DNA of 51,048 nt. It comes from Clostridia bacterium. GTDB lineage: Bacteria; Bacillota; Clostridia; Christensenellales; Borkfalkiaceae. The translations under genes were made by a program, and so were the position numbers. Location of the stretch: positions 1 through 51,048 of the forward strand of contig JAFSLQ010000028.1 of NCBI GenBank assembly GCA_017448355.1, in the 5' to 3' direction. A model generated the notes under the pieces. That model had not been told where the DNA came from. It searched no databases and saw only the letters and a program-made list of their open reading frames with translations. This document shows, one piece after another, positions 7,147-50,980 of the stretch. Within the stretch, counting starts at the first letter, position 1. Every line of letters starts with the position of its first letter.

Positions 7147-7191
7147 TTAACTTTTAGTTAATTGAATACAGAAAAAATATTTTCTTTTACT

Positions 7192-7214
7192 CTCGGTGGC
7201 GTTATGCCACCGAG
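7192..7214 (+). terminator. Hairpin between the two large secreted-protein genes
   Basis: A perfect stem, CTCGGTGGC (7192-7200) and GCCACCGAG (7206-7214) around GTTAT, sits 45 bp after the upstream stop. A T-run (CTTTTTC) follows only after about eight bases, so termination would be partial. It may instead be a transcript-stabilising or processing hairpin between the cotranscribed genes. Confidence 0.6.
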
Positions 7215-7280
7215 CAGTAAACTTTTTCAATTTGAAATCAATTACATAACTAATATAAAATTTTTATTATGGGGTGATTT

Positions 7281-31700: not shown

Positions 31701-34700
31701 TATAAACTCGTGGAAAAGGGTATTCCGAAAGAAGAGATAGCGTTTATTCACGATCCGAAAACCGACGAGCAAAAGCAAGACCTTTTCAATAAGGTGAACG
31801 CCGGTAAAGTAAGAGTTTTAATAGGCTCGACGGAAAAGTGCGGCGCGGGAACGAACGTTCAGGAACGGCTTGTTGCACTACATCACCTTGATACACCATA
31901 CCGCCCAAGCGATATGCAACAGCGTGAAGGTCGTATTATACGGCAAGGAAATAAGAATAAGCAAGTACAAATCTATACCTACGTTACCGAGCGGACTTTC
32001 GACAGTTATTCTTATCAGATACTCGAAAACAAGCAAAAGTTCATCTCGCAGATAGACAGGGGCGATTTAACTGTTCGTGAAGCGGAAGATATAGACGAGA
32101 GGACGCTTACTTATGCGGAAATAAAGGCTATAACCGCCGCCAATCCGAAGATAAAACGGAAGATGGAAGTAGATACGGAAATAGCGAGACTGCGCGTTCT
32201 TGAAGGGCAGTACAAAAAGAATTTATATGCCTTGCAAGATAAAGTTCGCAAGACATATCCCGAAGATATACAAAGGCAAACGCTTTATTTGGAAAGGTTA
32301 AGAGCGGACATAGCAACCGTTAAGGCAAGATTTAATCCAGACGTATTTTCCGTAAACGTGCAAGGAAAAACCTACACGGATAAAAAGGAAGGATCGCAAG
32401 CGTTAATGGACGCGCTTATGCACAACAGGTCGGACACGATAGTTGCTGAATACGGTGGGTTAAAGATAAGCCTTGATCCTATAACAATGATAGCGTCTGA
32501 ACGGACGGTAACATTAACGGGCGTAGGCAAGTATTCGATGACGATAGGCGAAAGCGCAAGCGGTCTTATAACAAGGCTTGATAATTTCCTTACGGATTTT
32601 CCCGAAAGAGAGAAACGCGCGGAAGGTAAATTGGAACAACTGAAAAGCGATTTAAAGGTAGTCGAAGAACAGGTAACTAAACCGTTCGAGCATAAGGATA
32701 AACTTGCGGAACTTGTAAAAGAACAGGCGGAATTAAACGCCGAACTTGACCTTAACCGTAGAGAAGAAGTGGTAATTGACGACGAAAAGGAGGAAAACAT
32801 CGTTGAAAGTGCCGAAGGGGATAACTATATGGGCATACCTGAACAAACCGTAAGTAAGACAAGATTTAAGCCGAGAAAACGCGCAAGCGGACAGATTTCA
32901 AAGACTTATAACAAGGTTAAAAGTGAAGAGCCGGACGCTTACGTTTTCATCAAGAACGGTAGTAATTACGAGATATACGGGGAACAGGCGGAAGAACTGT
33001 CCGAAAGATATAAATTGCCTATTATTAAGGATACCGTTTCGGGAAAAGAAACGAGCGTTCTTTCGGTAGAGTCAAAAGCCCTTGACAGGATAATTATGGA
33101 CGTTGTCTCAAACAACAACAAAGTAAAGATAGTGGAGGAAATGATGGAAGAAAAAGAAGAAAGTTTTATAGACGAGAACGAGACGGAAGAAACGCAAGCG
33201 GATATTTTACCCGATTACAGTATAAACCAAGAAGAAATGTTTAAGTACGGGTATAAACAGGACGATATGTTGCCGCTACGAAAGAAGACGGCGAAATTGC
33301 TTTATGAAATAGGCTTGCCCGTAAAAATCTTAAACACGATCAATACGGACGAAGCAGTACCTTCTGTTGCGGATATTATACACAGAAAAGAGTTAAACGG
33401 CATAAGGAAAGCCGATTGGCAGGAGTTTATAAACTCTGACAAAGGTTTTGATTATCTTTATGCAAGATACTTTTTCAGCGTGTCGGCACTTAAAACTCTG
33501 AATGAAGATATGTCTTATATGGACGGGATGTATGTTGACGGCTTATCTAACGCAATCTCGGAAGAAAAATCTGCGTTAGAAGAGTATTTGCCTGACGATA
33601 AAATAACCGTAAACGAGCAGATGAAACCGTTTGTCATTCCGTTACTTGATTACTTTGTCGCGCGTTTTGACGATTTTCCGTTAAATCACTATGGTTGGGA
33701 TAAAGAAGGTGTGTATTCGGCGATTTCAAGCAATATATCGGGCGAATCTTTGAGCGCGATGGTAAAAGAGCAGAACGAAGAACGTAAGTTAGGAAACTTT
33801 ATCGACAGAAAAATCGACAAGTTGGCTTGGATAATTAACAGGACTTACAGCAGCGGCGATATAGACGATATTGTTAAAGACTTAAAACCGTATTTTGAAA
33901 ATTCGGAATACGACGGCGGATTTAAGGGCGAAGAATTTGACAGATATTACGATGAGTTTGCCGAAGAAAAAATTGTTCCGTATCTTGAAAGCCAAGCGGA
34001 AGATAAAGAAATGGCAGCAGAACCGCAATGGAAATACGATTATCTTCTTGAAGGCGTGAATTTTGACGAACCGCAGAAAGTAAAAACGTACTTTGCGTAT
34101 CTTAAAGAGTGGTTCAGCGAACACAGTTTTATCGACAATCAATTTCCGGTTATTTGGGACGAGTTCTTTAACAACGAGATGGAAGACGACGCGCTTGCGG
34201 AGTATTTCACCGAACTTGCGGAGACCAACCAGATAGACAATTACGATCAAGCACGAGAGTTTATAGAGAAATGCAACGCAATAGGCGTAGCGGAAGAGTT
34301 ATTGCTTGCTTGTGATATTCGGGATGTGGAAATAACTTTGGAAGACGGGCAGATTGTAGCGCGAAACGAAGGCTTGGAGTGGAAAGGTAAAGATTTTTAC
34401 GAGTTCCTTTTACACGACGTTGTGGAAATAGATAGATACGGTAAACTTCTTGACGGCTACGGCGTGGATCAAGGCATTGTTGACGACCTGATTAAGTATG
34501 AAAAAATGTTTGAAAATCCGCCGAAAGAGATAGACTACGCCAAAGAGGTAATGGAAAGCGTAGAAAAAGAGTTCGACGATTTCAGAGACAATCTCACGAA
34601 AGAGCCGCCTTTAAATGTGTTTCATAAAAACTACGAAATACACGTTAAAACGGAACTGCACGACACAATAAACGGCGGGATGGAGTTTGATGAAGATGTA

Positions 34701-37385
34701 TATAAAACGCTTTATCAAGACAGGGGGCATATTCTCCAAACGCTTTATGACGGTTTTTTATCCGCAACGGCGGTGGATAAGGAAAGATTCAGCGTTGAAA
34801 CTTACGGCGATACTTCGGAGTTTATAGAAGAATACTGTAAACGACAGAATGAAAACGAGTCAAGTGAAATCGAGCAAGCCGAGCCGCAGACTATTCGGGA
34901 TAAATTAAAACAAAATGTTCAGAAAGAATATAACGAATTTATCCACGAAGAAATGGAAAGAACGAAAGAGCAACTAATTCATACGGACAATTACAAGATA
35001 CGGTTTTTTAACGAATTAGTGGACTTTCTCGGTGAAAACATAGAAACCTGCGGTATTACGGACAGAGACGTTGAAGCGCTTTTAACCGAAGAAAATCACG
35101 TTTTGGATAGCCTTTACGATTACTACTTGGATAGCGAGTATAACAGTATCAACAACTATGAAGACACGAAAGAGTTTATAGAAAACTATAACGACCGCTA
35201 TCACGAAGATATGGTAGAAGACCGTTATGAATACGAGTGGACAAAGCCTGACGCGACAGTTGCGTATTTCGGTGAAGACGAGCGCGGAATCAGATATTAC
35301 CATTTTAAGTATGACGGATTAAGCCTGTATAAACTTTCAGATTTATCCGATAAAAGGGCAAATATGGTTATAGCGGCTAACTACCTTGCAATGCCAAAAG
35401 AAGACTTAAATGCGTTTAACATAACTTTCTTAAAGGTCGGCAGAGATATAACCGAAGAAGAGCTTGCGGATAAAGAACACGTTATAGAGAGTATGCAAAA
35501 TGCCGTAGAAAGGGTAAAACAGGCGAAGAAACAAGACTTAAAGGACAATATTGCCTGTAAAAACGCAATAGAAAAGGCTATTTCCGAAAACTTTGACGGA
35601 ATGCACTTGAAAAAAGGCTTTGAAAACGAAGTAATAGCCAAACACGGACTTTCACGAGTTAAATACGTCTTGTCAAACACTTTGCAACAAAAGGACGGCG
35701 ACGGCAGATTTTCTTCGGAAAATCGAGAGTGGGGATTTAAGACGGATATAGAAGAGCCGATTGAGCAAAGGTATTTATTTACAGTTGACTCGCACCCTGC
35801 GGTATTGAACGGGTTTATTGACCTGTTCCGCAAAAAAGAGAAGAGGTTTGAAGAAAGTATGCAGATTTATTTTACGAAACAAGCGGAAATGAACGCCGAC
35901 GGATCTACAAGTTATCAGGCGTATATCCTGAATGAAGATACGGGGATAATGTTCCCTGCGTTTACGGAAGACTTTGAGAGCAAGGAAGCGTTAGACGAAG
36001 CGTTTAATAATTTTGCTTACAGGAACGGTTTTGACTATTACGAGAAAAGTCCCGAAGAACTGTTTGAAATGAGCAACGAAATATTAAATAAAAAGGAGGG
36101 GCAGGAAATGCCACAAAATGAAACGAAGATCGATAAGTCGTTAAGTGGTGAGTTTTTAGAAAAAACGAAAGGTGGTTATATGGTCGTTAATATTACAAAA
36201 GACGATGACGACCGTAACATCGCAATAGTTTACCGACAAAAAACCGACGATTACGTCGTGGCGATTCATTATGATGCTAATGACGGGACTTGGGCGCAAG
36301 GTCTTTACGTTTCAACGTTTGAGCAAGCAGAAGAAATGCGAGCGAAACAGTACGGCGACAAGCCGAAAATTTATGAAAACAAGGAGTGGAAAAAAGAAAT
36401 GGCAGAAAACGAAAACACAGAGAACAAAAAGAAATGGATAAACGTGCTAACGTCGAGAGACGCATTTATAAAGAAATACGATAAATCATCGTTTATGCGT
36501 ATGCCGCTATCTGGCGATTATTCGGGTTATACATATTTCTTGTATAACGACAGGATAAAAAATGCCACGCAAATAGCGGATTTAGAGAGCGATTCGAGAG
36601 AACTTGCGTATTCTTTAAGGATAGGTGAAGACGAAACTATCCGTATAGAGAATAGGGAAACGGAAGATATGGTCGAACTCTCGGCGGAAGAATTTAACGA
36701 GGCAGTCGGCGGAACTACAAGTAAAGATTACGTCAGATATAACGATAAAGGCGAAAAACGATGGACGACTATGAGCGTTCCAAGCGTTGCAATGCGAGGC
36801 ACTTACGATAAATCGGCAGTTTTCATTATGCCGAACAATGCGGAATTTAAGGGGAGTTTTTATGTTCCCAACTCGTTTGTATCGGAAGACACGGACAGCG
36901 ACGAAGAAAGGTTAAGGATAGCCGTTCCCGACGATTTTACCTTTACGGTAAAGAACAAAGAAACGGAAGAAAGCGAAAAGTTGTCGGCGTATCAGTTGTT
37001 CAGGGCGATTAACGGCACGAAGGTATCGGATTATGAGCGTGAAAGAACAGAAAAACAGAGCGTAGAGTCACCAGAAAAAAAGGACGTTAAGCCACAAGAA
37101 AAAAAGAACGATAACGGTTGGAAATACGTTTCAGTTCCTAACGCCGCTTTTATTACTGAATATGAAAAGAGCGATATGTTCCGTATGCCGAAAGGTCAGT
37201 TTGAAAAGTATTGCTACTTTTTACCGCACGAACTATTAAGGTTTAACGAAGAAAAGGGTACGGTTGCCATAAGCCTGCCGGAAACATTTACGGTAACACT
37301 TAATAACAGGGGTGCAAAAAAGGAAGAAGAAAGAAAAATCGAGATGACTGCGGAAGATTTTGTGGCACAGGTTAAAGGCAAATAA
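25776..37385 (+). CDS. Giant polyvalent protein: MutS-I-like, N6-methylase, SNF2-type helicase, DUF3848/3849-like modules
   Basis: The 3869-residue frame encodes many modules. Residues about 42-130 resemble MutS domain I, including Gly-Asp-Phe-Tyr-Glu. An acidic linker and an unassigned region follow. About 755-1035 is an N6-adenine methylase (Glu-Pro-Ala-Met-Gly-Thr-Gly-Asn near 867, Asn-Val-Pro-Phe near 932). About 1525-2110 is an SNF2-type helicase with Gly-Ser-Gly-Lys-Thr near 1552, Asp-Glu-Ala-His near 1713 and Gln-Arg-Glu-Gly-Arg-Ile-Ile-Arg-Gln near 2052. Later come a second MutS-I-like half module (about 2385-2425), two DUF3848-like repeats, a DUF3849-like region, and three ~105-residue repeats from 3554 on. 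It probably protects, unwinds or processes incoming element DNA. The TTG start is doubtful; the true N-terminus is probably at 25135. Confidence 0.8.
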   Translation: MNKVVVIEDTEEENVSDEPVMPSRTEIAEEEIKPKENPKVRDHPLNPIYEQYMEMQEKYPNAVVLYRLGDFYEIFGDKAKTIGEELDLTITGRDFGLSERVPMVGFPYHVTDAYISKIVEKHSVLLLEPDAEPKYILSHDEAMAFNSEQEKSKRPALEPIEDEELNKELDELLSEREQESEEDDDEITEEDWAEAEEYLNNGETGTESEQEETVQPQKEKSIRERKKKQKPQLSFFDLIDGNAEGQKEETYEDRKEKFIKQILTGGSGVSQGKFRIVENYNSDPSAAEFANFLKNEYGTGGSYGGGIDKEHGSKGLSGKYTDNENPENNIDFFLNWNEVATRIADLIDAGEYFNAEEKEEYKQFLAERTGTVQERNKAIIDHIIREARDRDTRGYYRVWWSSLYAGYKYLSDHADEINEEIVKLDGISDSYFADDDFFVYGQALDKQNNFYESDLETLEHKHELLESAKSGYHGIRAQTYAEYMFLEGTTSTKNGNYVFYFKDFGEEESFVREHAEAIGKELCLSKGVKNLSIDDDCIDVNFDKDFCPHLREEYKGTGIKPTSQSEFNRFKGLSERNKSFFEGYSKRPVFHPTDSLWGDVQSCTEIASGIYSVSTASHGGIMIAEEIAKYLLTSEALKVGQVYDGYYCYEEDCDKNVALRELYDKGILTQDNKYFTESYVKVGDSESEYKPFKELSDEGKEQFFKEWSKTVDESLAYWNQEYWQAHENIVPVKTVPQIEKPIAENTDLNEIGFDQSELGGLKARFQANLEAIRLLNKLYAEDRLPTKTEQLVLAKYVGWGGLAKAFDEHDANWQKEYNELKNALNSEDYDKAKASVLNAHYTSKDVIQGIYGALARMGVKGNNRILEPAMGTGNFFGYMPKEIADGARLYGVELDTITGKLAQKLYPNANIQIKGFEQTSFSDNRFDIVVGNVPFGAYTVYDSDYAKQNFYIHDYFLAKSIDKLKPNGLMAVITSSGTMDKLNPSVRKYLAERAELLGAIRLPNTAFKQNAGTEVVADILFFRKREQQEYITPENTEWLGVGKTEQGYEINNYFINHPEMVLGTLAIETGMYGATDVTVKPDGRTISEALGQAIEQLPQDIYVNPEYAEEQKEEISVDYNVKPLCYKVENGRLYMRVGDEMVEQDIPKSPKDAFERITEMINLRNELRYVLDIQTEGCSDEKLQSEQRILNANYDRFVKRFGRLNSKTNANLFREDADSALLFACEDVSEDKTTISKADIFSKRTIRPYVQITSTDDCFEALQISRNERGNVDISYIEELTGKDYDTVLSELGNAVFRNPVSVNPDDMYSGFETSEEYLSGNVVKKLETAREYAKENPALYEKNVAALESVQPEPIPASDIGVRIGASWVDKRYYTQFLRELLNLPSYYSDAIELYYNRFDSSWRVDKKSYTNWCSQELVNEVYGTSRANAYRLFEDCLNLRDVKIYDRVENDDGSYKRVLNQAETIAAREKQNKIKEAFADWIFNDPDRRSELEEAYNSTFNQTVLPVYDGSYLRFPGMNPAIELKPHQKNAVHRMVSTGDNTLLHHVVGSGKTFTMFATGMKLRQYGLAKKIMCAVPNHLVEQWASQGRLLYPNAKILVATKEDLAKDKRKRFVSKVAMGDWDFIIIAQSSFAKIPISPERQIRKIQEEIQRIEETIENTWMEKGMPRGAVKNLEKIKKNREAQLKKLLDDDKKDNVLIFENLGVDYLFIDEAHYYKNKFLFTKMNNVAGISTTASQRASDLELKCEYINELHGGDKGVVFATGTPISNSMTEMYTMQSYLQKEKLQDVGITFFDNWAANFGETITSLEMAPSGQGYKAKTRFSKFTNLPELLTMYRSFADVQTQDMVKLDVPDVDRKVINLKPSDTVLSLADEIAERAERISQRSVPPEIDNMLKITSDGKKLALDPRCFDTASADENGSKLNECASRIFEIWENTTDFKGTQIVFCDLSTPKKAFEDYVYGKDFDVYNDLKYKLVEKGIPKEEIAFIHDPKTDEQKQDLFNKVNAGKVRVLIGSTEKCGAGTNVQERLVALHHLDTPYRPSDMQQREGRIIRQGNKNKQVQIYTYVTERTFDSYSYQILENKQKFISQIDRGDLTVREAEDIDERTLTYAEIKAITAANPKIKRKMEVDTEIARLRVLEGQYKKNLYALQDKVRKTYPEDIQRQTLYLERLRADIATVKARFNPDVFSVNVQGKTYTDKKEGSQALMDALMHNRSDTIVAEYGGLKISLDPITMIASERTVTLTGVGKYSMTIGESASGLITRLDNFLTDFPEREKRAEGKLEQLKSDLKVVEEQVTKPFEHKDKLAELVKEQAELNAELDLNRREEVVIDDEKEENIVESAEGDNYMGIPEQTVSKTRFKPRKRASGQISKTYNKVKSEEPDAYVFIKNGSNYEIYGEQAEELSERYKLPIIKDTVSGKETSVLSVESKALDRIIMDVVSNNNKVKIVEEMMEEKEESFIDENETEETQADILPDYSINQEEMFKYGYKQDDMLPLRKKTAKLLYEIGLPVKILNTINTDEAVPSVADIIHRKELNGIRKADWQEFINSDKGFDYLYARYFFSVSALKTLNEDMSYMDGMYVDGLSNAISEEKSALEEYLPDDKITVNEQMKPFVIPLLDYFVARFDDFPLNHYGWDKEGVYSAISSNISGESLSAMVKEQNEERKLGNFIDRKIDKLAWIINRTYSSGDIDDIVKDLKPYFENSEYDGGFKGEEFDRYYDEFAEEKIVPYLESQAEDKEMAAEPQWKYDYLLEGVNFDEPQKVKTYFAYLKEWFSEHSFIDNQFPVIWDEFFNNEMEDDALAEYFTELAETNQIDNYDQAREFIEKCNAIGVAEELLLACDIRDVEITLEDGQIVARNEGLEWKGKDFYEFLLHDVVEIDRYGKLLDGYGVDQGIVDDLIKYEKMFENPPKEIDYAKEVMESVEKEFDDFRDNLTKEPPLNVFHKNYEIHVKTELHDTINGGMEFDEDVYKTLYQDRGHILQTLYDGFLSATAVDKERFSVETYGDTSEFIEEYCKRQNENESSEIEQAEPQTIRDKLKQNVQKEYNEFIHEEMERTKEQLIHTDNYKIRFFNELVDFLGENIETCGITDRDVEALLTEENHVLDSLYDYYLDSEYNSINNYEDTKEFIENYNDRYHEDMVEDRYEYEWTKPDATVAYFGEDERGIRYYHFKYDGLSLYKLSDLSDKRANMVIAANYLAMPKEDLNAFNITFLKVGRDITEEELADKEHVIESMQNAVERVKQAKKQDLKDNIACKNAIEKAISENFDGMHLKKGFENEVIAKHGLSRVKYVLSNTLQQKDGDGRFSSENREWGFKTDIEEPIEQRYLFTVDSHPAVLNGFIDLFRKKEKRFEESMQIYFTKQAEMNADGSTSYQAYILNEDTGIMFPAFTEDFESKEALDEAFNNFAYRNGFDYYEKSPEELFEMSNEILNKKEGQEMPQNETKIDKSLSGEFLEKTKGGYMVVNITKDDDDRNIAIVYRQKTDDYVVAIHYDANDGTWAQGLYVSTFEQAEEMRAKQYGDKPKIYENKEWKKEMAENENTENKKKWINVLTSRDAFIKKYDKSSFMRMPLSGDYSGYTYFLYNDRIKNATQIADLESDSRELAYSLRIGEDETIRIENRETEDMVELSAEEFNEAVGGTTSKDYVRYNDKGEKRWTTMSVPSVAMRGTYDKSAVFIMPNNAEFKGSFYVPNSFVSEDTDSDEERLRIAVPDDFTFTVKNKETEESEKLSAYQLFRAINGTKVSDYERERTEKQSVESPEKKDVKPQEKKNDNGWKYVSVPNAAFITEYEKSDMFRMPKGQFEKYCYFLPHELLRFNEEKGTVAISLPETFTVTLNNRGAKKEEERKIEMTAEDFVAQVKGK
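36430..37385 (+). repeat. Three tandem ~105-residue protein repeats at the end of the giant gene
   Basis: Repeats start near 36435, 36760 and 37120. Each begins with a Trp-centred strand (Lys-Trp-Ile-Asn-Val, Arg-Trp-Thr-Thr-Met, Gly-Trp-Lys-Tyr-Val), continues with Tyr-(Asp/Glu)-Lys-Ser ... Met-Pro, a Tyr-Phe/Phe-Tyr strand, and a Phe-Thr-Val/Ile-Arg-Ile strand with Asn-(Arg/Lys), ending in an acidic helix (Ser/Thr-Ala-Glu-x-Phe). They are diverged copies of one domain with no function known to me. Confidence 0.75.
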
Positions 37386-41598: not shown

Positions 41599-41757
41599 AT
41601 GGAACAAAAACCAAGAGAAAAACCTGAAATAGTTGTTCCGACAGGCTATAAGTTAGAAGACATTATAGATACTGACGATAACGGTTACGGGTTTAAGCAA
41701 GAAGCAATTTACACAGGGGAGGTGAACGTGAGAGTTGAACGAGACGGAAAAGAGTAA
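41599..41757 (+). CDS. 52-residue protein of unknown function
   Basis: An ATG with a GGAGGAAAAG site opens a 52-codon frame rich in charged residues (Lys-Pro-Arg-Glu-Lys-Pro-Glu near the start, Asp-Thr-Asp-Asp-Asn-Gly-Tyr-Gly in the middle, Val-Arg-Val-Glu-Arg at the end). It has no Cys or membrane segment. Its end overlaps the ArdC gene by 23 bp, so the two are probably translated together. I recognise no family; the ribosome site and tight overlap are the evidence that it is real. Confidence 0.5.
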   Translation: MEQKPREKPEIVVPTGYKLEDIIDTDDNGYGFKQEAIYTGEVNVRVERDGKE

Positions 41758-43402
41758 GGCGTATGAGAAATTAACGCCGGAAAGAAAAGCGCTTCTTGAT
41801 AGAGTTTTGGAAAACCTTAACAAAGGCGACGGATTATGGCAGCAAGGATGGATAAATACGGGCGTTCCTACGTCCGGTATTACGGGCAAAAAGTATCACG
41901 GAATAAACAGTTTTTATTTAACGCTTATTTCTATCATGAGAGGCTACGGGGATAACCGTTGGGTATCTTACAAGCAAATGGAAGAAAAAGGTTGGAAGTT
42001 TAAGCTTGATGAAGAAGGCAACAGTCTCGGCAAGGGCGCAGGGGTTTCTATCGAATTCTTTGAACTTCGGGATAAGGAAACGAAAAAGCCTTTTGACCGC
42101 AAAACGCTTGACGGTATGACGGCAGACGAAAAAGAAGAATATATGGATAAGAACGTATATCCTGTAAGGAAATATTACCGTGTATTCAATGCGGATATTA
42201 TAGACGGCATACCCGAAAAGGCAAAACGCGAGATAGATCCGAACGGAATTAATGAAAGAGCGGAAAACGTTTTGACTTATTGGAGCGAAAACGAAGCGCA
42301 AATTATTTACGGTGGCAATCAGGCATTTTACAGGGTAGCGACCGACGAGATACATCTGCCGAACAGAGAAGACTTTTTGGATATGAACGAGTTTTACTCA
42401 ACGGCTTTGCACGAAATAGGACACAGTACGGGACACGAAACGAGGCTTAACCGTAAACTTGAAAACAAGTTCGGAACGGAAGATTATGCGATTGAAGAAT
42501 TAAAAGCCGAGATAGCGTCGTTGTTTTTAGAGCAAGACCTTGAAATACAGGTAAGCGAAAAGCATATCGAGAACAACAGCAGATACATAAAGTCTTGGCA
42601 CGACAGAATTGCCGAAGATCCGAACTTACTGTTTACCGCTATATCCGATGCAGACAAGATTTCGAGATACGTTATAGAAAAGGAAAGGCAGTCTGCAAAA
42701 GACAATAACACCGAATACTACGCTATCGTACAGCAAGAAACGGACGACGGCGAAACGGGTTACAGGATATACGGCGTAATGCCTTACGGACAAGTCAGTT
42801 CTATCATAGGCTATACGTTCAAGAGTATGGAGGCGTTAAACAGGGAGTTTGACGATTACAAGTCCGCGCCCGCATATAAGGACAAGGTATTTGAAGAAGT
42901 CACCTACGACGAACTTGAAAAGATAAGTATTCAGGCTTTTGAGCGAGAAGAAAAGAAAGCTGAAAAAGAAGGACGGGAGATATACGCACCGCCATCAATT
43001 ATTGCGGCGAGAGCAGTGGTCGTCAGTTCGCCTGTGGATATGAGTGAACGTGGAATTGAAAGCCTTACTCGAATGACCGACAGGGACGTTGTTGAAAGAG
43101 CAAGTAAGACAAAGAACGGCGAAAAGTTCACACAGTTATATAACGGATTATCCGTATTAGGTAGCGAAGAAAAGGACGAGCGTTCTTTAATGACAAGGCT
43201 TGCGATGTTCTGCGGCGACGATCAGGAGCAATTGCTTCGTGTATTTCGTTCTTCCGGACAGTTTCGAGACGATAAGCCGAATGCTTTTTACGAAAAAATG
43301 GCGAAAGAGTCGATACAGTTCGTTGAAAAGGTCAAACGGGGCGACGAGAAAACGCCTTTGAATATGGGAAAGGGACGTTTCGGAATGAACGCTAAAACGT
43401 AA
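41735..43402 (+). CDS. ardC: ArdC-type antirestriction protein with a C-terminal primase-type helix bundle
   Basis: Residues about 1-130 match the ArdC ssDNA-binding domain (Leu-Trp-Gln-Gln-Gly-Trp, Tyr-His-Gly-Ile-Asn-Ser-Phe-Tyr-Leu, Gly-Ala-Gly-Val-Ser). About 190-310 is the zincin-like domain with His-Glu-Ile-Gly-His-Ser-Thr-Gly-His near 225. A middle segment (about 325-395) resembles a polyvalent-protein domain. About 435-540 repeats the helix bundle of the primase gene (Met-Thr-Asp-Arg-Asp-Val-Val-Glu ... Leu-Leu-Arg-Val-Phe). ArdC binds single-stranded DNA entering the recipient and shields it from restriction. The TTG start at 41735 follows GGGAGG at 41717-41722. The added helix bundle is not part of classic ArdC and may link protection to priming. 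Confidence 0.82.
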   Translation: MNETEKSKAYEKLTPERKALLDRVLENLNKGDGLWQQGWINTGVPTSGITGKKYHGINSFYLTLISIMRGYGDNRWVSYKQMEEKGWKFKLDEEGNSLGKGAGVSIEFFELRDKETKKPFDRKTLDGMTADEKEEYMDKNVYPVRKYYRVFNADIIDGIPEKAKREIDPNGINERAENVLTYWSENEAQIIYGGNQAFYRVATDEIHLPNREDFLDMNEFYSTALHEIGHSTGHETRLNRKLENKFGTEDYAIEELKAEIASLFLEQDLEIQVSEKHIENNSRYIKSWHDRIAEDPNLLFTAISDADKISRYVIEKERQSAKDNNTEYYAIVQQETDDGETGYRIYGVMPYGQVSSIIGYTFKSMEALNREFDDYKSAPAYKDKVFEEVTYDELEKISIQAFEREEKKAEKEGREIYAPPSIIAARAVVVSSPVDMSERGIESLTRMTDRDVVERASKTKNGEKFTQLYNGLSVLGSEEKDERSLMTRLAMFCGDDQEQLLRVFRSSGQFRDDKPNAFYEKMAKESIQFVEKVKRGDEKTPLNMGKGRFGMNAKT

Positions 43403-43908: not shown

Positions 43909-44460
43909 ATGAAGGAAGATATTTTTAAGACAAACAAAAGATACGACGTTATATACGCAGACCCGCCGTGGAGATTTTTAACTTATTCGGAAAAAGGGAA
44001 AGGTAGAAGTGCGGAAAGACATTATCCGACAATGGCAAGGGAAGAGATAAAGGCTTTGCCCGTAAAAAGGATAAGCGCAAAAGACAGCGTTTTGTTTTTG
44101 TGGGTAACAGCGCCTTGTTTAATAGAAGGCTTGGAACTTATAAAGGCGTGGGGATTTACATATAAGACGGTGGCGTTCACTTGGGTAAAGCAAAATAAGC
44201 GGAACGATAAGCCGTTTATGGGGTTAGGATATTACACCCGCGCAAATGCGGAATATTGTCTTATCGCAACGAAAGGAAAAGTCCTGACAAGGAAGTCACG
44301 TTCGGTTTCTTCGGTAATTATATCGCACATAGAACGGCACAGTAAAAAGCCTGACGAAGTGCGAAAAAGGATCGTTGAACTATACGGCGACAGACCCCGA
44401 ATAGAACTTTTTGCAAGAGATATAGCAGACGGTTGGGACTGCTTCGGTAACGAAGTATAA
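43909..44460 (+). CDS. MT-A70-family adenine methyltransferase
   Basis: The 183-residue protein shows Tyr-Ala-Asp-Pro-Pro-Trp at about residue 20, the MT-A70 catalytic motif, then Tyr-Pro-Thr-Met, Phe-Leu-Trp-Val-Thr-Ala-Pro, Thr-Trp-Val-Lys and Gly-Tyr-Tyr-Thr-Arg-Ala-Asn-Ala-Glu. A C-terminal Arg-His-Ser-Lys-Lys-Pro-Asp and Glu-Leu-Phe-Ala-Arg complete the family pattern. Bacterial members on mobile elements methylate DNA adenine. The AAAGGGG site at 43884-43890 is spaced for a two-codon frame, ATG AAA TAA (43898-43906), and lies 18 bp from the real ATG. Ribosomes may terminate there and restart at 43909. Confidence 0.87.
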   Translation: MKEDIFKTNKRYDVIYADPPWRFLTYSEKGKGRSAERHYPTMAREEIKALPVKRISAKDSVLFLWVTAPCLIEGLELIKAWGFTYKTVAFTWVKQNKRNDKPFMGLGYYTRANAEYCLIATKGKVLTRKSRSVSSVIISHIERHSKKPDEVRKRIVELYGDRPRIELFARDIADGWDCFGNEV

Positions 44461-44506
44461 AGCAAAAAACAATCAATTAAAAAACATTAAGGAGACAAGG
44501 AAAAAG

Positions 44507-44860
44507 ATGAAAGAAAGGAATTTTAAATTAACGCAAACGATATACGACGTTGTAAAACTTATGGACGATAAGGCGGCAGGAAAGTTTATCAAGAGTGTGT
44601 GCGACTACGCGTTTCACGGTGAAATTTACGACGGCAACGACATCACTTTAAAGAGCAATTTTATGCTCGTCAAACGTATCATAGACGGTCAGATGATGGA
44701 CAGAGCATACGGCAAACTCGGCGCTCAGAAGTCGAAAGAACTTCGCCAGAAAAGGCAGGCGGTTGAAGCTATGCAGAAGGCTGTTATAGGTTCGAGTATC
44801 GTTTCCGGCATCGGCAAAATAATGACAAACCTTGAAAAGAAAGACGAAAAGAAGGCGTAA
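44507..44860 (+). CDS. DUF6291-like protein
   Basis: The 117-residue protein has a strong AAGGAGACAAGG site. Its N-terminal half (Tyr-Asp-Val-Val-Lys-Leu-Met, Lys-Phe-Ile-Lys-Ser-Val-Cys-Asp-Tyr-Ala-Phe-His-Gly) resembles DUF6291, a small helical domain often found at the front of phage or plasmid replication proteins. The C-terminal half is basic and helical with a short hydrophobic stretch. No catalytic residues can be named. It lies just to the left of the likely oriT. Confidence 0.55.
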   Translation: MKERNFKLTQTIYDVVKLMDDKAAGKFIKSVCDYAFHGEIYDGNDITLKSNFMLVKRIIDGQMMDRAYGKLGAQKSKELRQKRQAVEAMQKAVIGSSIVSGIGKIMTNLEKKDEKKA

Positions 44861-44874
44861 TTTTTTTGGTGGAA

Positions 44875-44954
44875 TTCAAGTCTTGCGGTAAGCAGGATAA
44901 AGAAAAAACACCAAAATGTTTTTTCGGGCTTTAAGCAAGGTGGGAAACCCACTT
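44875..44954. other. Candidate oriT with minus-strand nick site
   Basis: On the minus strand, TATCCTGC occurs at 44899-44892, matching the IncP-type nick consensus YATCCTG/Y; the predicted cut lies between 44893 and 44892. An inverted repeat GAAAAAACA (44902-44910) / TGTTTTTTC (44917-44925) ends nine bases on the 5' side of that cut, the usual MOBP arrangement. A third structure, GTGGG-AAA-CCCAC (44940-44952), lies beyond it. The site is a non-coding gap directly before a putative accessory gene and the MobP relaxase gene. Function is inferred from position and motif. Confidence 0.7.
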
Positions 44955-44974
44955 CTTTTCTTGGGAGATAAACG

Positions 44975-45442
44975 ATGAACAGAGAAGCGATTTTAAGCGG
45001 TAATTCAAGGCAATATATAAGCGTAAAAGACGTTGAATTGTTAGGGTATATAGAACGGCTATTACCACACTATACGACTTTTAACAAACTCTTAAACGAC
45101 GCATTAAGGCTTGGGCTACCGAAACTTTTAGAAGAAAAAGAAAACGTCGAAATCACGCTTCCGAGTGTCGTTGAAGAACGGGGAACGCCTATCAAGACAA
45201 AGCGCAGGAACAGTCTCGAAACGGGCTATAACGAAATAAAAAGTTTACTGTCAGAAGTGGTAGTGAACTCGACATTAAATAAAGCAATGCTTTCGGGACT
45301 GTTTAACGCAAAGGAAAAAGAAATATCAAATCCAACGATTGCGGGCAGATTTAAACAAGGGCTATTAAATAATATTCCGGATTGTCTGTTCGACGCCGAG
45401 ATGGATATGTTGAAAGAAATTAGTAAGGACGAAACAGAATGA
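44975..45442 (+). CDS. Probable relaxosome accessory protein (MobC-like position)
   Basis: The 155-residue protein starts at an ATG with GGGAG. It has an N-terminal segment (Arg-Gln-Tyr-Ile-Ser-Val-Lys-Asp-Val-Glu-Leu-Leu, then Thr-Thr-Phe-Asn-Lys-Leu-Leu-Asn-Asp-Ala-Leu-Arg) that could form a ribbon-helix-helix, followed by helices. It overlaps the relaxase gene by four bases and lies next to the candidate oriT, the standard place of an oriT-binding accessory protein. The assignment rests mainly on position; sequence similarity to known MobC proteins is weak by eye. Confidence 0.5.
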   Translation: MNREAILSGNSRQYISVKDVELLGYIERLLPHYTTFNKLLNDALRLGLPKLLEEKENVEITLPSVVEERGTPIKTKRRNSLETGYNEIKSLLSEVVVNSTLNKAMLSGLFNAKEKEISNPTIAGRFKQGLLNNIPDCLFDAEMDMLKEISKDETE

Positions 45443-46695
45443 GCGAACACAGGGCAGTTATAAATATTCAATATACACCGTATTTACCGACAGGGCATAT
45501 GCCGAAGTACAAACGGGAACAGCACAGAAAAGAGCGGGCATTTTACGATATGTCGGGTGAAGAGAACATACTCAAATACATAAACACGGAAGGGAAAAGA
45601 GCGGGTAAAAATTCAATGCTCGAATACCTTAAAAAGAACACAGGCGTGTTTAACGGAAACGGTATGATACCCGAAGAAGAAGTGAACGCGATGAAAGCAC
45701 GGGTGCAGAATAACAAATCAATAATTTGGCACGGCTTTATTTCCTTTAATAAGGAAGATTCGGAAAAAATAGACACGCCGGATAAATGTATAAGTCTTGT
45801 GAAAAAAGTGTTCCCTACTTTTTTTAAAGAGGCGGGATTAAAAGCGGATAATATGGATTTAATGTGTGCGTTGCATCTTGACCGTCCGAACCACTTACAT
45901 ATTCATTTCGTGTTCTGGGAAAAAGAACCGAAGTATAAGGATAACGACGGTGTTTTACGTTTCAGAAAAAACGGAAGAATAAAGCAAACGGCTATAGACA
46001 ATATGTTCATTAGGCTCGGATTATTTATTCAGGAAGAAAAAGATGATATTTACGAAAAGAGAATCAAAGCGATAAAAACCTTGCGCACTATGACTGATAT
46101 TCATAAGTTTATGAACAGCAAGGAAAAGATAAAGGAAGAAATATTATCGCTTGCAAAAGACTTGCCGGCTACGGGACGAATATCCTATGGCAGCAAAGAA
46201 GCAGAGCCGTATAGAGAACGGGTAGATAAAATTGTTCGTCTTATGCTCGGTAGAGATAGAACGGCAAGGAAAGCAGACGAAAATTTCTACTACGCGCTTG
46301 ATAAAAAACGCGAGCTGGTAAAAAGTATCTGCAAAGGTCAGAATGTGGACGAAAGCAAGGTGAAAATAATCGAGCAAATAGAAGCGGACTATAAACGTCG
46401 GCAAGGCAATCTCGTTCTTAATCTTTGTAAATTCATTAAGCCTGAATACTTCGAGCGGAAGAAGAACAAAAGGTATAAAGCCAACGATGATAAGTTAAAA
46501 AAACGTATCAATATGTCCAAACGAAGCGTAGAACGGCGACTTGACAGATTCTTTTTAACGTTCGGTAAAGACAGTCGTATTTTAGAGCGAGATTTTTACG
46601 ACCGCTTACAAGAGATAGAAGAAGAAATCGAACGTAAGCGCAAGGAAGAAAACGAAAAGGCGGAGCGCGACAATTACTACAAAGGGGGTAAATAA
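45439..46695 (+). CDS. mobP: MOBP-family relaxase (MobP)
   Basis: The 418-residue protein carries the histidine triad of relaxase motif III in His-Leu-Asp-Arg-Pro-Asn-His-Leu-His-Ile-His (about residues 145-155), followed by Phe-Val-Phe-Trp-Glu. Upstream there is an N-terminal Tyr-Thr-Pro-Tyr segment and a Gly-Phe-Ile-Ser strand before the motif. A nucleophilic Tyr is expected in the N-terminal part but cannot be chosen by eye. The long C-terminal half is basic and coiled. It would cleave the transferred strand at oriT and stay covalently bound to the 5' end. It overlaps the accessory gene and is followed after 5 bp by the coupling protein. Confidence 0.85.
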   Translation: MSEHRAVINIQYTPYLPTGHMPKYKREQHRKERAFYDMSGEENILKYINTEGKRAGKNSMLEYLKKNTGVFNGNGMIPEEEVNAMKARVQNNKSIIWHGFISFNKEDSEKIDTPDKCISLVKKVFPTFFKEAGLKADNMDLMCALHLDRPNHLHIHFVFWEKEPKYKDNDGVLRFRKNGRIKQTAIDNMFIRLGLFIQEEKDDIYEKRIKAIKTLRTMTDIHKFMNSKEKIKEEILSLAKDLPATGRISYGSKEAEPYRERVDKIVRLMLGRDRTARKADENFYYALDKKRELVKSICKGQNVDESKVKIIEQIEADYKRRQGNLVLNLCKFIKPEYFERKKNKRYKANDDKLKKRINMSKRSVERRLDRFFLTFGKDSRILERDFYDRLQEIEEEIERKRKEENEKAERDNYYKGGK

Positions 46696-46700
46696 GAAAA

Positions 46701-48911
46701 TTGAATAGAAAAGAAATAACGAGCCACGGGAAAAGAAAATCCTTAAAACTAGCAGTTATACTTTGGGCTATCGTCTTTGCGTTCGTTGCGGTACTTTTAA
46801 TGTATCTTTTTGCTATGGGCGGAGCGGATAGTTTATGGGAGATAATCTCGCAAAGAAATTATTGGCTGTCTAACGGTGTAGTTGACGGGTTGATAATAAT
46901 CGGGTTTTTACTCGTATATAAAGTTGATGCACAGAATATTGCGTTAAAACAAAACGACCTAGAAGATACCGAGTGGCTTACGGTAAAGAGACTCAAAAAG
47001 ATGAAAGAGTTTAAGGTTACCGATTGGGACGGAGTTCCTGAAATAAACGACGGAATAGTTATAGGCGCGGAGAAGAAAGGAAAGAAAGACGTGGAGATAA
47101 TAACCACAAGTCAATTACACGCTTTAATCGTAGGCACTACGGGCAGCGGTAAAACGACGGGATTCGTTGACCAGAACATTTCCGTTCTTGCAAGGAGTAA
47201 AGGAAAACCGAGTCTGGTAATATCCGATCCGAAAAAGGAACTTTACGAAAAGCACGCTAAACTTCTCAAAAAGGAAGGTTACAAAATATCCGTTCTTGAT
47301 TTAAGAGAACCGTATTCGTCGGAGCATTGGAATCCTATGAACGTGCTATTGCGAAGAATAAGGCTTGTCAAAGACCTTGAATACAATTTGGAACATAAAG
47401 CCAACAAGTATTACGGTGCGGGCGAAGTATTTATGTCGCATATTGACGCGAGAACAAGGATGCAGGAACTTAAAGACGAAATCTTTGAGAACGCTATGGA
47501 CTTGGTATATACGCTTTGTCCCGTTCAGAACAAAGACCAACCGAATTGGGAAGAAGGCGCGAGAAACCTTATTTTAGGACTTGTGCTTGCCTTCTGCGAA
47601 GACTGTATCAAAGGTAAGATGGAAGAAAAACAGTTGTTGCTATTTAACGTGTATCACAACATAACGAAATACTGTTCGGAAGATACGACGGCGTTAAAAG
47701 AATATCTCTTGAAAGGCAGAGACGAGTTCTCGAAAGTAAGGGGACTTGTGAATACCGTGCTTATAACGAGTGATAAAACTTTGACGAGTTATTTGTCCGA
47801 AGTAAACAGTTATATGCAACAGTTGTCCGATGACGGTATTTTATCGCTTACGAGCGAAAACGATATGGACATAGTAAATATGGACGAAAGCCCGAACGCA
47901 GTATTTATAATTGTGCCGGACGAAAGATTTACGAGACACCGTTTCGTAACGCTCTTTATTACGCAGATGTATAAGGAACTCGTCGAAAAGGCTAACCTTA
48001 ATCTTCGCAGAGAACAGATGCAGACGGCAATCTTAAAGAGAAACACTTACTTCGTGTTAGACGAGTTCGGTAATCTTCCAAAGTTCGAGAATATGGAAGG
48101 TATGGTTACTGTTGCAAGGTCAAGGGGAATACGGTTTTTATTCGTATTACAGTCTTTTTCGCAACTTACGGCAAAGTACGGCAGAGAAATAGGCGATATA
48201 GTAAAGACCAACTGTAATGTGAAAATCTTTATAGGTTCGGACGACGCAGATACGAGAAAAGAGTTCTCGGAACTTTGCGGGCAAAAGAAGATTAAAAACT
48301 TTTCCGTCAACACTAATGCTGAAACTTCGCCGTCAAGTAATACGGGCGCAAGCAATCAACCGTTAATATCAGTAGGGATGTTAGAACGGTTAAACGGTAA
48401 CGAAAAAGGCGACGCAATAGTTTCGGTTCGAGGATACGAGCCGATATGGACGGTATTTACTCCGTCATACCAACTTAAAGAGTTTTATTTCAAAGAAGGT
48501 AAGGCGGCGATCGGGAGACGCGAAGCGGTGTTTTTCGATAAAAGCAATTACGTTTTCGACATACACGGCGAAGACGAAAATATAAAAGTTCTCGATGCAA
48601 TAGAAAAGAGAGAAACGGAAGAGGACGAGCAGGATAAAGTAAAACAGGTAAAATTAATGACTCTTGACCAAGAATGGCAGAGTATAGTAAACGAAATAGA
48701 CCTGAGAATTAAAAGACTCGTTACAGTGCTGAATGGAAAGGATTTTTCATCTGTTAAGGATATGAATATCGGGTCCAAGGCAACGTTTCTCTACAATATT
48801 ATGGAGAGCTACGATAAACCCCGTGCTCAACAAATTTTGATAGTTGCGGACTTTATATCCGTTCAATTACCAAAACTCAAAGATTTGCAAGAGCAGGCGG
48901 GGAAATTATAA
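46701..48911 (+). CDS. virD4: VirD4/TraG-type coupling protein
   Basis: The 736-residue protein has two N-terminal membrane helices (about 16-38 and 60-74). It has Walker A Gly-Thr-Thr-Gly-Ser-Gly-Lys-Thr-Thr near 143-151 and Walker B Phe-Val-Leu-Asp-Glu-Phe-Gly-Asn-Leu-Pro near 451, with the following Ala-Arg-Ser-Arg-Gly-Ile-Arg-Phe and Leu-Gln-Ser-Phe-Ser-Gln typical of TraG/VirD4. It is an inner-membrane hexameric ATPase that brings the relaxase-DNA complex to the secretion channel. The TTG start is supported by AAAGGGGG 12 bp upstream. The C-terminal ~110 residues are charged helices that may bind the relaxosome. Confidence 0.92.
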   Translation: MNRKEITSHGKRKSLKLAVILWAIVFAFVAVLLMYLFAMGGADSLWEIISQRNYWLSNGVVDGLIIIGFLLVYKVDAQNIALKQNDLEDTEWLTVKRLKKMKEFKVTDWDGVPEINDGIVIGAEKKGKKDVEIITTSQLHALIVGTTGSGKTTGFVDQNISVLARSKGKPSLVISDPKKELYEKHAKLLKKEGYKISVLDLREPYSSEHWNPMNVLLRRIRLVKDLEYNLEHKANKYYGAGEVFMSHIDARTRMQELKDEIFENAMDLVYTLCPVQNKDQPNWEEGARNLILGLVLAFCEDCIKGKMEEKQLLLFNVYHNITKYCSEDTTALKEYLLKGRDEFSKVRGLVNTVLITSDKTLTSYLSEVNSYMQQLSDDGILSLTSENDMDIVNMDESPNAVFIIVPDERFTRHRFVTLFITQMYKELVEKANLNLRREQMQTAILKRNTYFVLDEFGNLPKFENMEGMVTVARSRGIRFLFVLQSFSQLTAKYGREIGDIVKTNCNVKIFIGSDDADTRKEFSELCGQKKIKNFSVNTNAETSPSSNTGASNQPLISVGMLERLNGNEKGDAIVSVRGYEPIWTVFTPSYQLKEFYFKEGKAAIGRREAVFFDKSNYVFDIHGEDENIKVLDAIEKRETEEDEQDKVKQVKLMTLDQEWQSIVNEIDLRIKRLVTVLNGKDFSSVKDMNIGSKATFLYNIMESYDKPRAQQILIVADFISVQLPKLKDLQEQAGKL

Positions 48912-48925
48912 AAAGGGAGGACAAA

Positions 48926-50326
48926 ATGACAAAAATTAAAAACAAGATATTCGTTGCGTTAAGCGCGTTTCTCGTTTTGTCGGTTGCGCTTATTTTTTGC
49001 CTGAATATAGGCAATGTAAAGGCTTTTGCCGACGAAAACGAAGTGTGCGAACACGAATACGAAGAAAGCATAGTGGAAGCGACTTGTTCCGAAATGGGCT
49101 ATACGCTTTATACCTGTAAATTATGCGGAGATAATTACAAAGATAATTTTACCGATTTCAAAGAGCATAATTTTACGGATATTGTTATAGCGCCGACGTG
49201 TACGGAACGCGGTTATACCACTCATTTATGTGTGGAGTGCGGCTATTATTACGAAGACAACGTAATACTGCCGTTCGGACACACTTACACCGTAGAAGAA
49301 CACGAAGTCACTTGTACGGAAGACGGTTATACGCTACACACCTGCGAAACCTGCGGGGCAAGTTATGTGGATAACGTAGTCGAATCGACGGGACACGATT
49401 TCAAAGAAAAGAAAGTAGAAGCAACCTGTACGGCTTACGGGTTTACCGTTCATACTTGCGAAAAATGCGGCGACAAATATACAGACAGCTATGTATATCC
49501 TACGGGACACCATTTTGAAGATACGGTAATAGAGCCTACGGAAGATTGCGTAGGTTATACGTTCCATAAATGTACCGATTGTTCGTACACATATCTTTCG
49601 GACTTTGTAAGGAGCGGTGAAACGCCGTATTTCCCCGAAGAACCGACAGAACCAACAGGTGAAGGACAAGGCGAAACGCCTGTAATTCCAGAAGAGCCTA
49701 CGGGCGGAGAACAAGGCGAAACACCCGTAATTCCTGACGAACCGACGGGCGATGAACAGGGCGATCACACGCACTTATATATATTGTTTTCGGAGAACTA
49801 TGAAGACGAAAAATACATATATATCAGATATTTTTGCGTAGTGTGCGATGAAGAAAAGAACGACCTTGTTCAGATAGCGTTTACTTCGGAAGATGGAAAC
49901 AGGTATAACCTTACGGCGGACGAAAACGGTAAAGTGGATTATTCGGAAATTCCTTACGGCGTTTACGAAGTAGAGATGTTCGGCGAGAACGGGCAGACTC
50001 TTACTTGGTATCAACTGACGCTCGCGGAAGAGGCGACGAATACGGACGAGCCTACCGAGCCGCAGGAACAGGAAACGCCGACAGAACCCGAAACACCGAG
50101 CGAACAGGACGGAGATCCGTTTGAAGATTTAGGTGGCGGGTTTGTTGACGAAATAGGCGACACGGAAGAAAAGACCGAAACCGCCGAACAGAATAAAGGC
50201 AATTCGGGACTTATGACGGGTATCATAATCGTGCTTATGTTGCTCGGCGCAGGAGCGGTAGTAACACTCATTTTAATGAAAAAGAAAAAGAATAAAGAAA
50301 AAAAAGAACAGGAGAATAAGGAATAA
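48926..50326 (+). CDS. Cysteine-rich repeat surface protein in the transfer operon
   Basis: The 466-residue protein has a signal peptide (hydrophobic core about 8-30, Ala-Phe-Ala). Five ~40-residue repeats (about 40-230) follow, each with Cys-(Thr/Ser)-x-x-Gly-(Tyr/Phe)-Thr, a Cys-x-x-Cys knuckle and a His at the border. Next come three Pro/Glu/Gly-rich spacers, a beta domain with its own Cys-x-x-Cys, an acidic Pro-rich stalk, one membrane helix (about 430-452) and a Lys-rich tail, giving an outside C-terminal-anchored topology. It lies between the coupling protein and pilin genes with its own GGAGG site, so it may mediate mating contact; that role is inference. The cysteine pairs could bind zinc or form disulfides. 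Confidence 0.72.
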   Translation: MTKIKNKIFVALSAFLVLSVALIFCLNIGNVKAFADENEVCEHEYEESIVEATCSEMGYTLYTCKLCGDNYKDNFTDFKEHNFTDIVIAPTCTERGYTTHLCVECGYYYEDNVILPFGHTYTVEEHEVTCTEDGYTLHTCETCGASYVDNVVESTGHDFKEKKVEATCTAYGFTVHTCEKCGDKYTDSYVYPTGHHFEDTVIEPTEDCVGYTFHKCTDCSYTYLSDFVRSGETPYFPEEPTEPTGEGQGETPVIPEEPTGGEQGETPVIPDEPTGDEQGDHTHLYILFSENYEDEKYIYIRYFCVVCDEEKNDLVQIAFTSEDGNRYNLTADENGKVDYSEIPYGVYEVEMFGENGQTLTWYQLTLAEEATNTDEPTEPQEQETPTEPETPSEQDGDPFEDLGGGFVDEIGDTEEKTETAEQNKGNSGLMTGIIIVLMLLGAGAVVTLILMKKKKNKEKKEQENKE

Positions 50327-50658
50327 TGAACAGTAATTTATTAACGGAAACTACCTTGAACGGTAGTTTGGAAGGCATCGTAACGAATCTGAAAACTCTA
50401 ATGGATAGTTTTTGGATTTACATTGTTATAGCATTGGCGGCAGTTGTCGTGGTATGGGGCGCATACGTCGGTATAAAAATCGCTATCGCGCATAAGAACG
50501 AAGACAAGATTAACGCTCGTGATATGGTTAAAAATCTTATTATCGGTATAATCATAATCTTCGTTGTTGCAATGGGCGCACCTTTACTTATCAACGGTTT
50601 GTCCGCTTGGGTAGGCACTTCTTCCGCAAGCGTTGGTCTTGTCGGAACGGTAATTTAA
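50326..50658 (+). CDS. Two-helix pilin-like conjugation protein, copy 1
   Basis: The 110-residue protein has two strong membrane helices (about residues 28-51 and 70-88) joined by a short basic loop (His-Lys-Asn-Glu-Asp-Lys), the layout of VirB2/TrbC-type pilins and related small T4SS membrane proteins. It starts on the last base of the surface-protein stop. The C-terminal tail (Thr-Ser-Ser-Ala-Ser-Val-Gly) is longer than in the second copy. The transfer-operon position supports a pilin or channel subunit. Confidence 0.65.
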   Translation: MNSNLLTETTLNGSLEGIVTNLKTLMDSFWIYIVIALAAVVVVWGAYVGIKIAIAHKNEDKINARDMVKNLIIGIIIIFVVAMGAPLLINGLSAWVGTSSASVGLVGTVI

Positions 50659-50677: not shown

Positions 50678-50980
50678 ATGAATAACAATTTGTTGACGGA
50701 AACCACTTTAAACGGTAGTTTGGGAAGCATTGTAGCGAATCTTAAAACTCTTATGGACAGTTTTTGGATTTATATCGTCATCGCACTTGCGGCAGTCGTT
50801 GTCGTATGGGGCGCATACGTCGGTATAAAAATCGCTATCGCACACAAGAATGAAGACAAGATCAATGCCCGTGATATGGTTAAAAACCTTATTATCGGTA
50901 TCATCATAATCTTCGTAATCGCTATGGGCGCACCGCTTCTCATCAACGGTTTGTCGGCTTGGGTCGGCGCAGGCGCATAA
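50678..50980 (+). CDS. Two-helix pilin-like conjugation protein, copy 2
   Basis: The 100-residue protein is nearly identical to the preceding one through the second helix and differs mainly in the shorter tail (Gly-Ala-Gly-Ala). It has its own strong GAAAGGAGG site. DNA identity is high but third positions differ at many codons, so the duplication is not extremely recent. Two subunit forms in one element could build mixed pili or channels. Confidence 0.65.
   Translation: MNNNLLTETTLNGSLGSIVANLKTLMDSFWIYIVIALAAVVVVWGAYVGIKIAIAHKNEDKINARDMVKNLIIGIIIIFVIAMGAPLLINGLSAWVGAGA

Follow-up and report, generated by a model that had tools for sequence, protein, structure and literature searches.

A candidate origin of transfer with two conserved hairpins and an IncP-like nick core beside a relaxase operon of gut Clostridia

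The window analyzed here, a stretch of 51,048 nucleotides of a Clostridia genome, contains an intergenic gap (44861-44974) that is very probably the origin of transfer (oriT) of an integrative conjugative element, and for which we infer relaxase binding, nicking, the transferred strand and mobilization from the sequence. The site has a defined architecture that is conserved in related elements, the arms of its hairpin covary, orphan copies exist apart from any relaxase, and one natural breakpoint falls at the core. Our confidence in this reading derives from the hairpin and from the orphan sites. The gap separates a DUF6291 gene from an operon encoding an accessory protein, a relaxase and a coupling protein, and comprises, together with its surroundings, the following features (a slash marks the cut):

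41735-43402, plus: ArdC-like (anti-restriction family) protein, putative leading region
43909-44460, plus: MT-A70 family methylase, putative leading region
44507-44860, plus: DUF6291 protein, nearest gene 3' of the predicted nick (leading side)
44890-44962, minus: putative oriT extent, the only part matching an orphan site of this genome in blastn (73 bp, 81%)
44892-44899, minus: nick core TATCCTGC, predicted cut 44893/44892 (TATCCTG/C), placed by analogy to IncP and by one natural chimera
44900-44901, minus: 2-nt spacer from hairpin to core, TT in the window and CT in 59 of 65 distinct sites
44902-44925, minus: oriT hairpin, a perfect 9-bp inverted repeat with a 6-nt loop, its arms covarying among relatives
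44938-44954, minus: palindrome A of the GGGTTTCCC type (AAGTGGG-TTT-CCCACCT), second conserved hairpin
44975-45442, plus: accessory protein of 155 aa, first gene of the relaxosome operon, without Pfam match
45439-46695, plus: relaxase of 418 aa, MobP3-like, below the curated cut-off
46701-48911, plus: VirD4/TraG-type coupling protein
50326-50658, plus: type IV secretion pilin-like protein (match below cut-off), followed by a similar open reading frame at 50678-50980

Architecture and conservation of the site

A first-pass annotation had proposed an oriT at 44875-44954, based on an IncP-like octamer on the minus strand, a perfect 9-bp inverted repeat on its 5' side and the position just before the relaxase operon. 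All three are present. The core TATCCTGC reads from 44899 to 44892, the arms of the repeat lie at 44902-44910 and 44917-44925, nine bases separate the end of the repeat from the predicted cut, in agreement with the IncP/MOBP spacing of 8-9 nt, and the gap directly precedes the operon. The proposed interval ends at an edge of the second hairpin, a feature that the annotation did not name, as it did not cover the orphan copies; the similarity to an orphan site delimits 44890-44962. By itself, the octamer is weak evidence for an oriT, YATCCTGY occurring 15 times in the window against 3.44 times expected (shuffle mean). The combination of hairpin and core is not a chance occurrence: R1, a covariance model covering both, scores 33.2 bits at 44925-44886 of the minus strand, one of the 27 sites used to build the model, and 11.1 bits at the next-best site of the window. 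As single-stranded DNA the minus strand folds into both hairpins (-11.5 kcal/mol, z -2.5, equaled by 3 of 200 shuffles). An Rfam search of 44400-45500 gave no match.

The relaxase matches the MobP3 model (NF041499) with an E-value of 7.8e-23, yet its 81.5 bits stay below the curated cut-off of 150 bits, and the MOBP label of the first-pass annotation is tentative; in 14 genomes the same model found no match above its cut-off. Against the Pfam Relaxase family (PF03432, cut-off 24.6) the score is 23.4 bits as a protein and 26.2 bits in a genome search. The three histidines and the tyrosine that characterize HUH enzymes are present: H146, D148, H152, H154 and H156 are invariant in 23 rows, as is Y47 in LKYINTEGKR, a motif resembling VKYITDEQGK of TraI. 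Y12 and Y63 are invariant too, and any of the three tyrosines may be catalytic. The best PDB match of the relaxase profile is 9qq7 ('Relaxase', E 2.3e-4), over residues 64-207. Relatives of the 155-aa accessory protein are found upstream of many related relaxases, and its family profile had no match in PDB. At three loci (L053, L056 and L058 of genomes G415, G428 and G420) the relaxase is part of longer open frames (about 1,180 codons) and may be fused to an additional domain.

At E<=1e-3, 16 of 101 related genomes encode a relative of the relaxase; at E<=1e-10, so do 49 of 396 from the order, a set that overlaps with the former. Relatives also occur at 22 loci in genome_contigs; the viral contigs, PLSDB plasmids and phages searched contained none. 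At 36% relaxase identity or more, 58 loci remain, which correspond to 42 distinct places after 16 were merged as copies; relaxases below 36% showed no clear site of the hairpin-core kind and are excluded from the counts. As a site we accepted a minus-strand hairpin with a stem score of at least 6, located no more than 700 bp upstream and ending 1-3 nt before T[AT]NCCTGC. Such a hairpin with its core, in the correct orientation, occurs at 39 of 42 places. Two of the exceptions (L035, L066) have a core with a weaker stem (score 5), and the third (L025) lies beside a relaxase fragment. Control DNA of 422,341 bases contained 57 bare cores, none with such a hairpin.

Removal of sites that are 80% alike reduced 55 relaxase-linked sites to 30 distinct ones. 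A lack of octamer conservation in close relatives of the relaxase would count against the first-pass annotation, and it is in part observed: (C/T)ATCCTG(C/T) occurs in the window and 19 of the 30 sites, and 11 deviate at positions 2-3, whereas CCTGC shortly after the hairpin is constant in 30 of 30. The core types are TATCCTGC (19 sites), TAGCCTGC (6), TAACCTGC (3) and TTACCTGC (2). Sites with TAGCCTGC form one fully supported clade on the relaxase tree. With the outgroup excluded, the four types require 6 changes on this tree versus 10.4 after shuffling (0 of 1,000 shuffles), but without the TAGCCTGC rows 5 changes compare with 4.9, i.e., the other variants are scattered and core types do not cluster. 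Thus one change of the nick sequence goes with a relaxase clade, and no more than that.

The hairpin varies in sequence and retains its pairing. When 3' arms are swapped between loci, the mean stem score drops from 8.03 to 3.52, with 0 of 10,000 permutations as high as the original pairing. In an alignment of 27 sites, from which three of the 30 with a spacer other than 2 nt are omitted, 91.4% of the cells pair and two-sided changes occur at all nine pairs, amounting to 83 cells versus 18-31 after sliding the partners against each other. Because pairing was the criterion for choosing the 5' arms, the slide test is biased towards pairing; the swap test is fairer and answers this bias. These substitution patterns indicate selection for the paired structure itself. 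In related elements, the conserved position, strand, spacing and pairing of the arms strongly support the candidate oriT.

Copies of the site without a relaxase

In the 101 related genomes R1 found 42 sites at E<=0.01. Among the 26 with E<=1e-3, 8 lie beside a relaxase of the family (one of them a fragment) and 18, belonging to 13 groups at 75% identity, lie apart from one. In 298 other genomes of the phylum sample only 3 sites reached E<=0.01, a contrast that is not strictly like for like, as 60 candidates per genome were scored in the former set and 20 in the latter. The three are located in or beside ordinary genes and have no palindrome A, scoring 6-10 versus 12-16 in orphans. Except for a fragment at L120, outside the 18, the relaxase family profile detected no relaxase in 20 stretches around orphans, and neither did PF03432, PF03389, PF02486 or NF041499 on the orphan contigs. 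Within the families searched, the 18 sites at E<=1e-3 thus represent putative oriTs without a relaxase, as in iOriT islands. At least 1.5 kb of sequence is available on the expected relaxase side in 16 of the 18.

Among 30 neighboring proteins tested, recombinases were found no more than 2.5 kb from 7 of the 18 orphans, namely tyrosine integrases near L105, L109, L110, L114 and L119 and serine recombinases near L111 and L122. Two further recombinases adjoin weaker sites, L106 and the tandem sites of L118. Several loci have particular arrangements. Tandem oriT-like sites, TTACCTGC followed by TAACCTGC, occur beside serine recombinases at L118 (6735-6821) and L122 (7990-8045, the first one recognized by eye), L133 (7706-8258, genome G075) holds two sites in inverted orientation separated by about 500 bp, and the orphan oriTs of L112 and L119 adjoin genes of about 350 codons (6909-7985 and 6967-7998, respectively) that weakly match sigma-70 region 4.

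The genome of the window itself (G000; 1.94 Mb, 60 contigs) has orphans on two other contigs, one on C42 (L105) and an inverted pair on C57 (L106, 7969-8118), where two oriT-like sites with cores TATCCTGC and TTACCTGC stand in opposite orientation about 110 bp apart. Among the 64 other distinct sites, L106 is the closest to the site of the window (32 of 34 positions), followed by L097 from another species (31 of 34); the scan behind this 65-site comparison misses some orphans with a deviating palindrome A, including L109, L123 and L124. When the 8.8 kb of L106 are compared with the window by blastn (E<=1e-3), the only match is 44890-44962. The integrase-side DNA of L106 is shared with L097 (75% over 1,161 bp) and L105 (73% over 1,473 bp). 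Of all observations, the match between L106 and the window most strongly hints at a helper and its hitchers; it also delimits the putative oriT independently. Such look-alike sites on smaller elements of the same and related bacteria suggest hitch-hiking.

The orphans look like relaxase-less mobilizable islands, most likely using this relaxase family in trans. It is unlikely, though worth keeping in mind, that they are instead relics of decayed conjugative elements. Several do lie near contig ends or on short contigs, less than 0.7 kb is present on the side expected to hold the relaxase in L108 and L115, and recombinases accompany only the 7 mentioned, with part of the neighbors tested. Yet the hairpin and core of orphans score equal to those of relaxase-linked sites, some loci combine two sites of different core type, and L106 resembles the conjugative element of the window only inside the oriT.

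The orphans also bear on palindrome A. All relaxase-linked sites but L048 (29 of 30) have a GGGTTTCCC-like palindrome at a distance of 58-88 nt from the predicted nick. Read on the plus strand it is terminator-like, and it precedes the first operon gene in both gene arrangements. It could have been a terminator of the operon, but the orphan sites keep it: palindrome A, which is not part of the covariance model, is present in 18 of 18 strong orphan sites (16 have it 9-13 nt ahead of the hairpin) and accordingly appears to belong to the transfer site. It is weak in L105 and L123, and 1.4% of random stretches score at least as high as the weakest form. We consider it quite unlikely that palindrome A alone is a regulatory hairpin and that only the nearer hairpin and the core make up the oriT. 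Its place before the operon, its terminator-like form and its degeneration in L105 and L123 would fit such a role, but not its retention, mostly at much the same distance from the hairpin, in sites that have no operon.

Predicted cut position and transfer polarity, and proposed mechanism

Relaxases recombine oriTs at the nick, and one clean chimera was found (L078/L108). Its 5' side equals L076/L107 in 75 of 75 positions and its 3' side equals L006 in 73 of 75, the switch of parent falling between core position 3 and the second base past the core, within CCTGCT. This breakpoint agrees with the predicted nick between G and C and is suggestive of the cut position, one event not amounting to proof. 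Two other candidates were rejected, L110/L116 differing by an indel (judged by eye) and L086/L093 having DNA in common on either side of the core. L003, a less convincing candidate, was given no weight.

On the putative leading side of the nick, 10 of the 22 genome_contigs loci were tested. The nearest 3' gene encodes a DNA methylase at 6 of them and DUF6291 at the other 4, and in all 10 the strand predicted to be transferred would be the template of this gene. In 14 genomes searched, DUF6291 was found at 13 loci, 10 of which lie 197-309 bp from such an oriT site; a literature search yielded no paper naming this domain. It is a frequent direct neighbor of the oriT, as in the window (44507-44860) and at L105 (10499-11245). 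According to the available part of the source, anti-defence genes are known from the leading regions of plasmids (PMC11541004). Further to the left, the window holds a single open frame of 3,869 codons (25776-37385) in the putative leading region, and a run of glycoside hydrolase genes (GH2, rhamnosidase, GH94) with a PfkB kinase (909-21151), left of the transfer module, which may be cargo or chromosome.

We propose the following course of events. The relaxase, aided by the accessory protein, would bind the hairpin at 44902-44925, probably together with palindrome A, cut the minus strand at TATCCTG/C and remain on the 5' end at 44892. The relaxase-bound strand would then be handed to the VirD4 protein. 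Transfer of the minus strand would start with the side of DUF6291, the methylase and ArdC and end with the relaxosome operon; as these leading genes lie on the plus strand, the transferred strand would be their template. Islands with the same bipartite site, in part beside integrases, most likely draw on the same relaxase family in trans.

Two alternatives concern the gap as a whole. That it is a rolling-circle replication origin of the element, with a relaxase mainly acting as replication initiator, is very unlikely. The HUH-type active site would suit that function, as would the adjoining DUF6291, which resembles phage replication proteins, but genes for a coupling protein, a pilin-like protein and a leading region lie nearby, and the two roles are not mutually exclusive. 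Very unlikely, too, is a control of transcription or translation of the relaxase operon by the hairpins (terminator, attenuator, operator) with the octamer as a bystander: it would account for the terminator-like form of palindrome A and its place before the first gene in both arrangements, but not for a core that stays constant beside a hairpin of changing sequence, for 18 orphans that keep both hairpins and the core without the operon, or for palindrome A lacking a T run on the complementary strand in the orphans L114, L118 and L121 (by eye).

Taking the oriT reading further, a shared transfer site may link many elements in this order of gut Clostridia. Relaxase-less islands would outnumber the possible helper elements (18 versus 8 strong sites in 101 genomes), some would carry two core types for two helper families, relaxase-driven recombination from oriT to oriT at the nick would shuffle leading regions, and the GGGTTTCCC hairpin would be a new conserved oriT module. 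This combined picture is tentative, and we stop a little short of expecting all of it to hold.

Relation to known transfer systems

The site appears to work like an IncP/MOBP oriT, nicking and transfer being predicted and the relaxase staying below the MobP3 cut-off. According to the available text of PMC3772185, TATCCTGC follows an inverted repeat in IncP (RP4-type) origins as well, with 8 nt from repeat to cut versus 9 here. On the IncP plasmid CP002151.1, traJ-traI-traG are arranged relative to the oriT as are the accessory, relaxase and coupling protein genes described here, with identical order, orientation and side. In contrast, BLAST detects no similarity between the relaxase and TraI (E 0.32), hhalign pairs the two over the three-histidine region only (probability 6.5), the accessory proteins do not align, R1 does not detect the IncP oriT, and core positions 2-3 vary and palindrome A is present only in our sites. 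Given this shared arrangement on the one hand and the unmatched relaxases and R1 result on the other, the site appears to function in the IncP manner, while membership of the IncP family is not established. The VirD2 oriT of Helicobacter pylori tfs4 likewise carries TATCCTGC beside an inverted repeat upstream of the relaxase gene; in the part of PMC3772185 at hand, nicking is reported as shown, the relaxase is called distinct from established families and, going by that description alone, a second hairpin is not mentioned.

Tn1549 and pLS20 (MOBL) are conjugative elements of Gram-positive bacteria (Firmicutes) too, and in pLS20 the nick again lies at an inverted repeat. Their nick sequences, RYGCTTG/C and GCCGG/CTTTT (PMC7755788), differ from the core of the window, and in pLS20 the nick is at the start of the repeat according to the available portion of PMC5313138.

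Integrated elements carrying only an oriT are rarely searched for, and a 2017 review states, in the part available, that comprehensive searches had never been done (PMC5704250). The present result provides a searchable and testable oriT, with a specific predicted cut, for conjugative elements of little-studied gut Clostridia, a likely helper-hitcher pair within one genome, and a family-specific model, R1, that yields candidates at low background. Literature matches listed for oriT-only islands in Clostridia or for Christensenellales oriTs included none, which is weak evidence that none exist. OriT-only islands, like elements that bear more than one oriT, are already known kinds, as far as the accessible parts of PMC5704250 and PMC11389934 go. 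The relaxase-less mobilizable islands (MGI, iOriT) described there combine an integrase and a conjugative-type oriT, a combination seen at part of the loci here; they are Gammaproteobacterial, apart from two tiny Firmicutes elements that Tn916 mobilizes although their oriT probably has no relation to its own, whereas here the site closely resembles that of the putative helper. Copies of a helper oriT on elements without conjugation genes are also known as the oriT mimics of staphylococcal plasmids (PMC8136818, available part), and more than one oriT per element from plasmids with several oriTs (PMC11389934, likewise). Those mimics and multi-oriT systems are plasmids, while the sites reported here lie on genome contigs of Clostridia, in part together with integrases.
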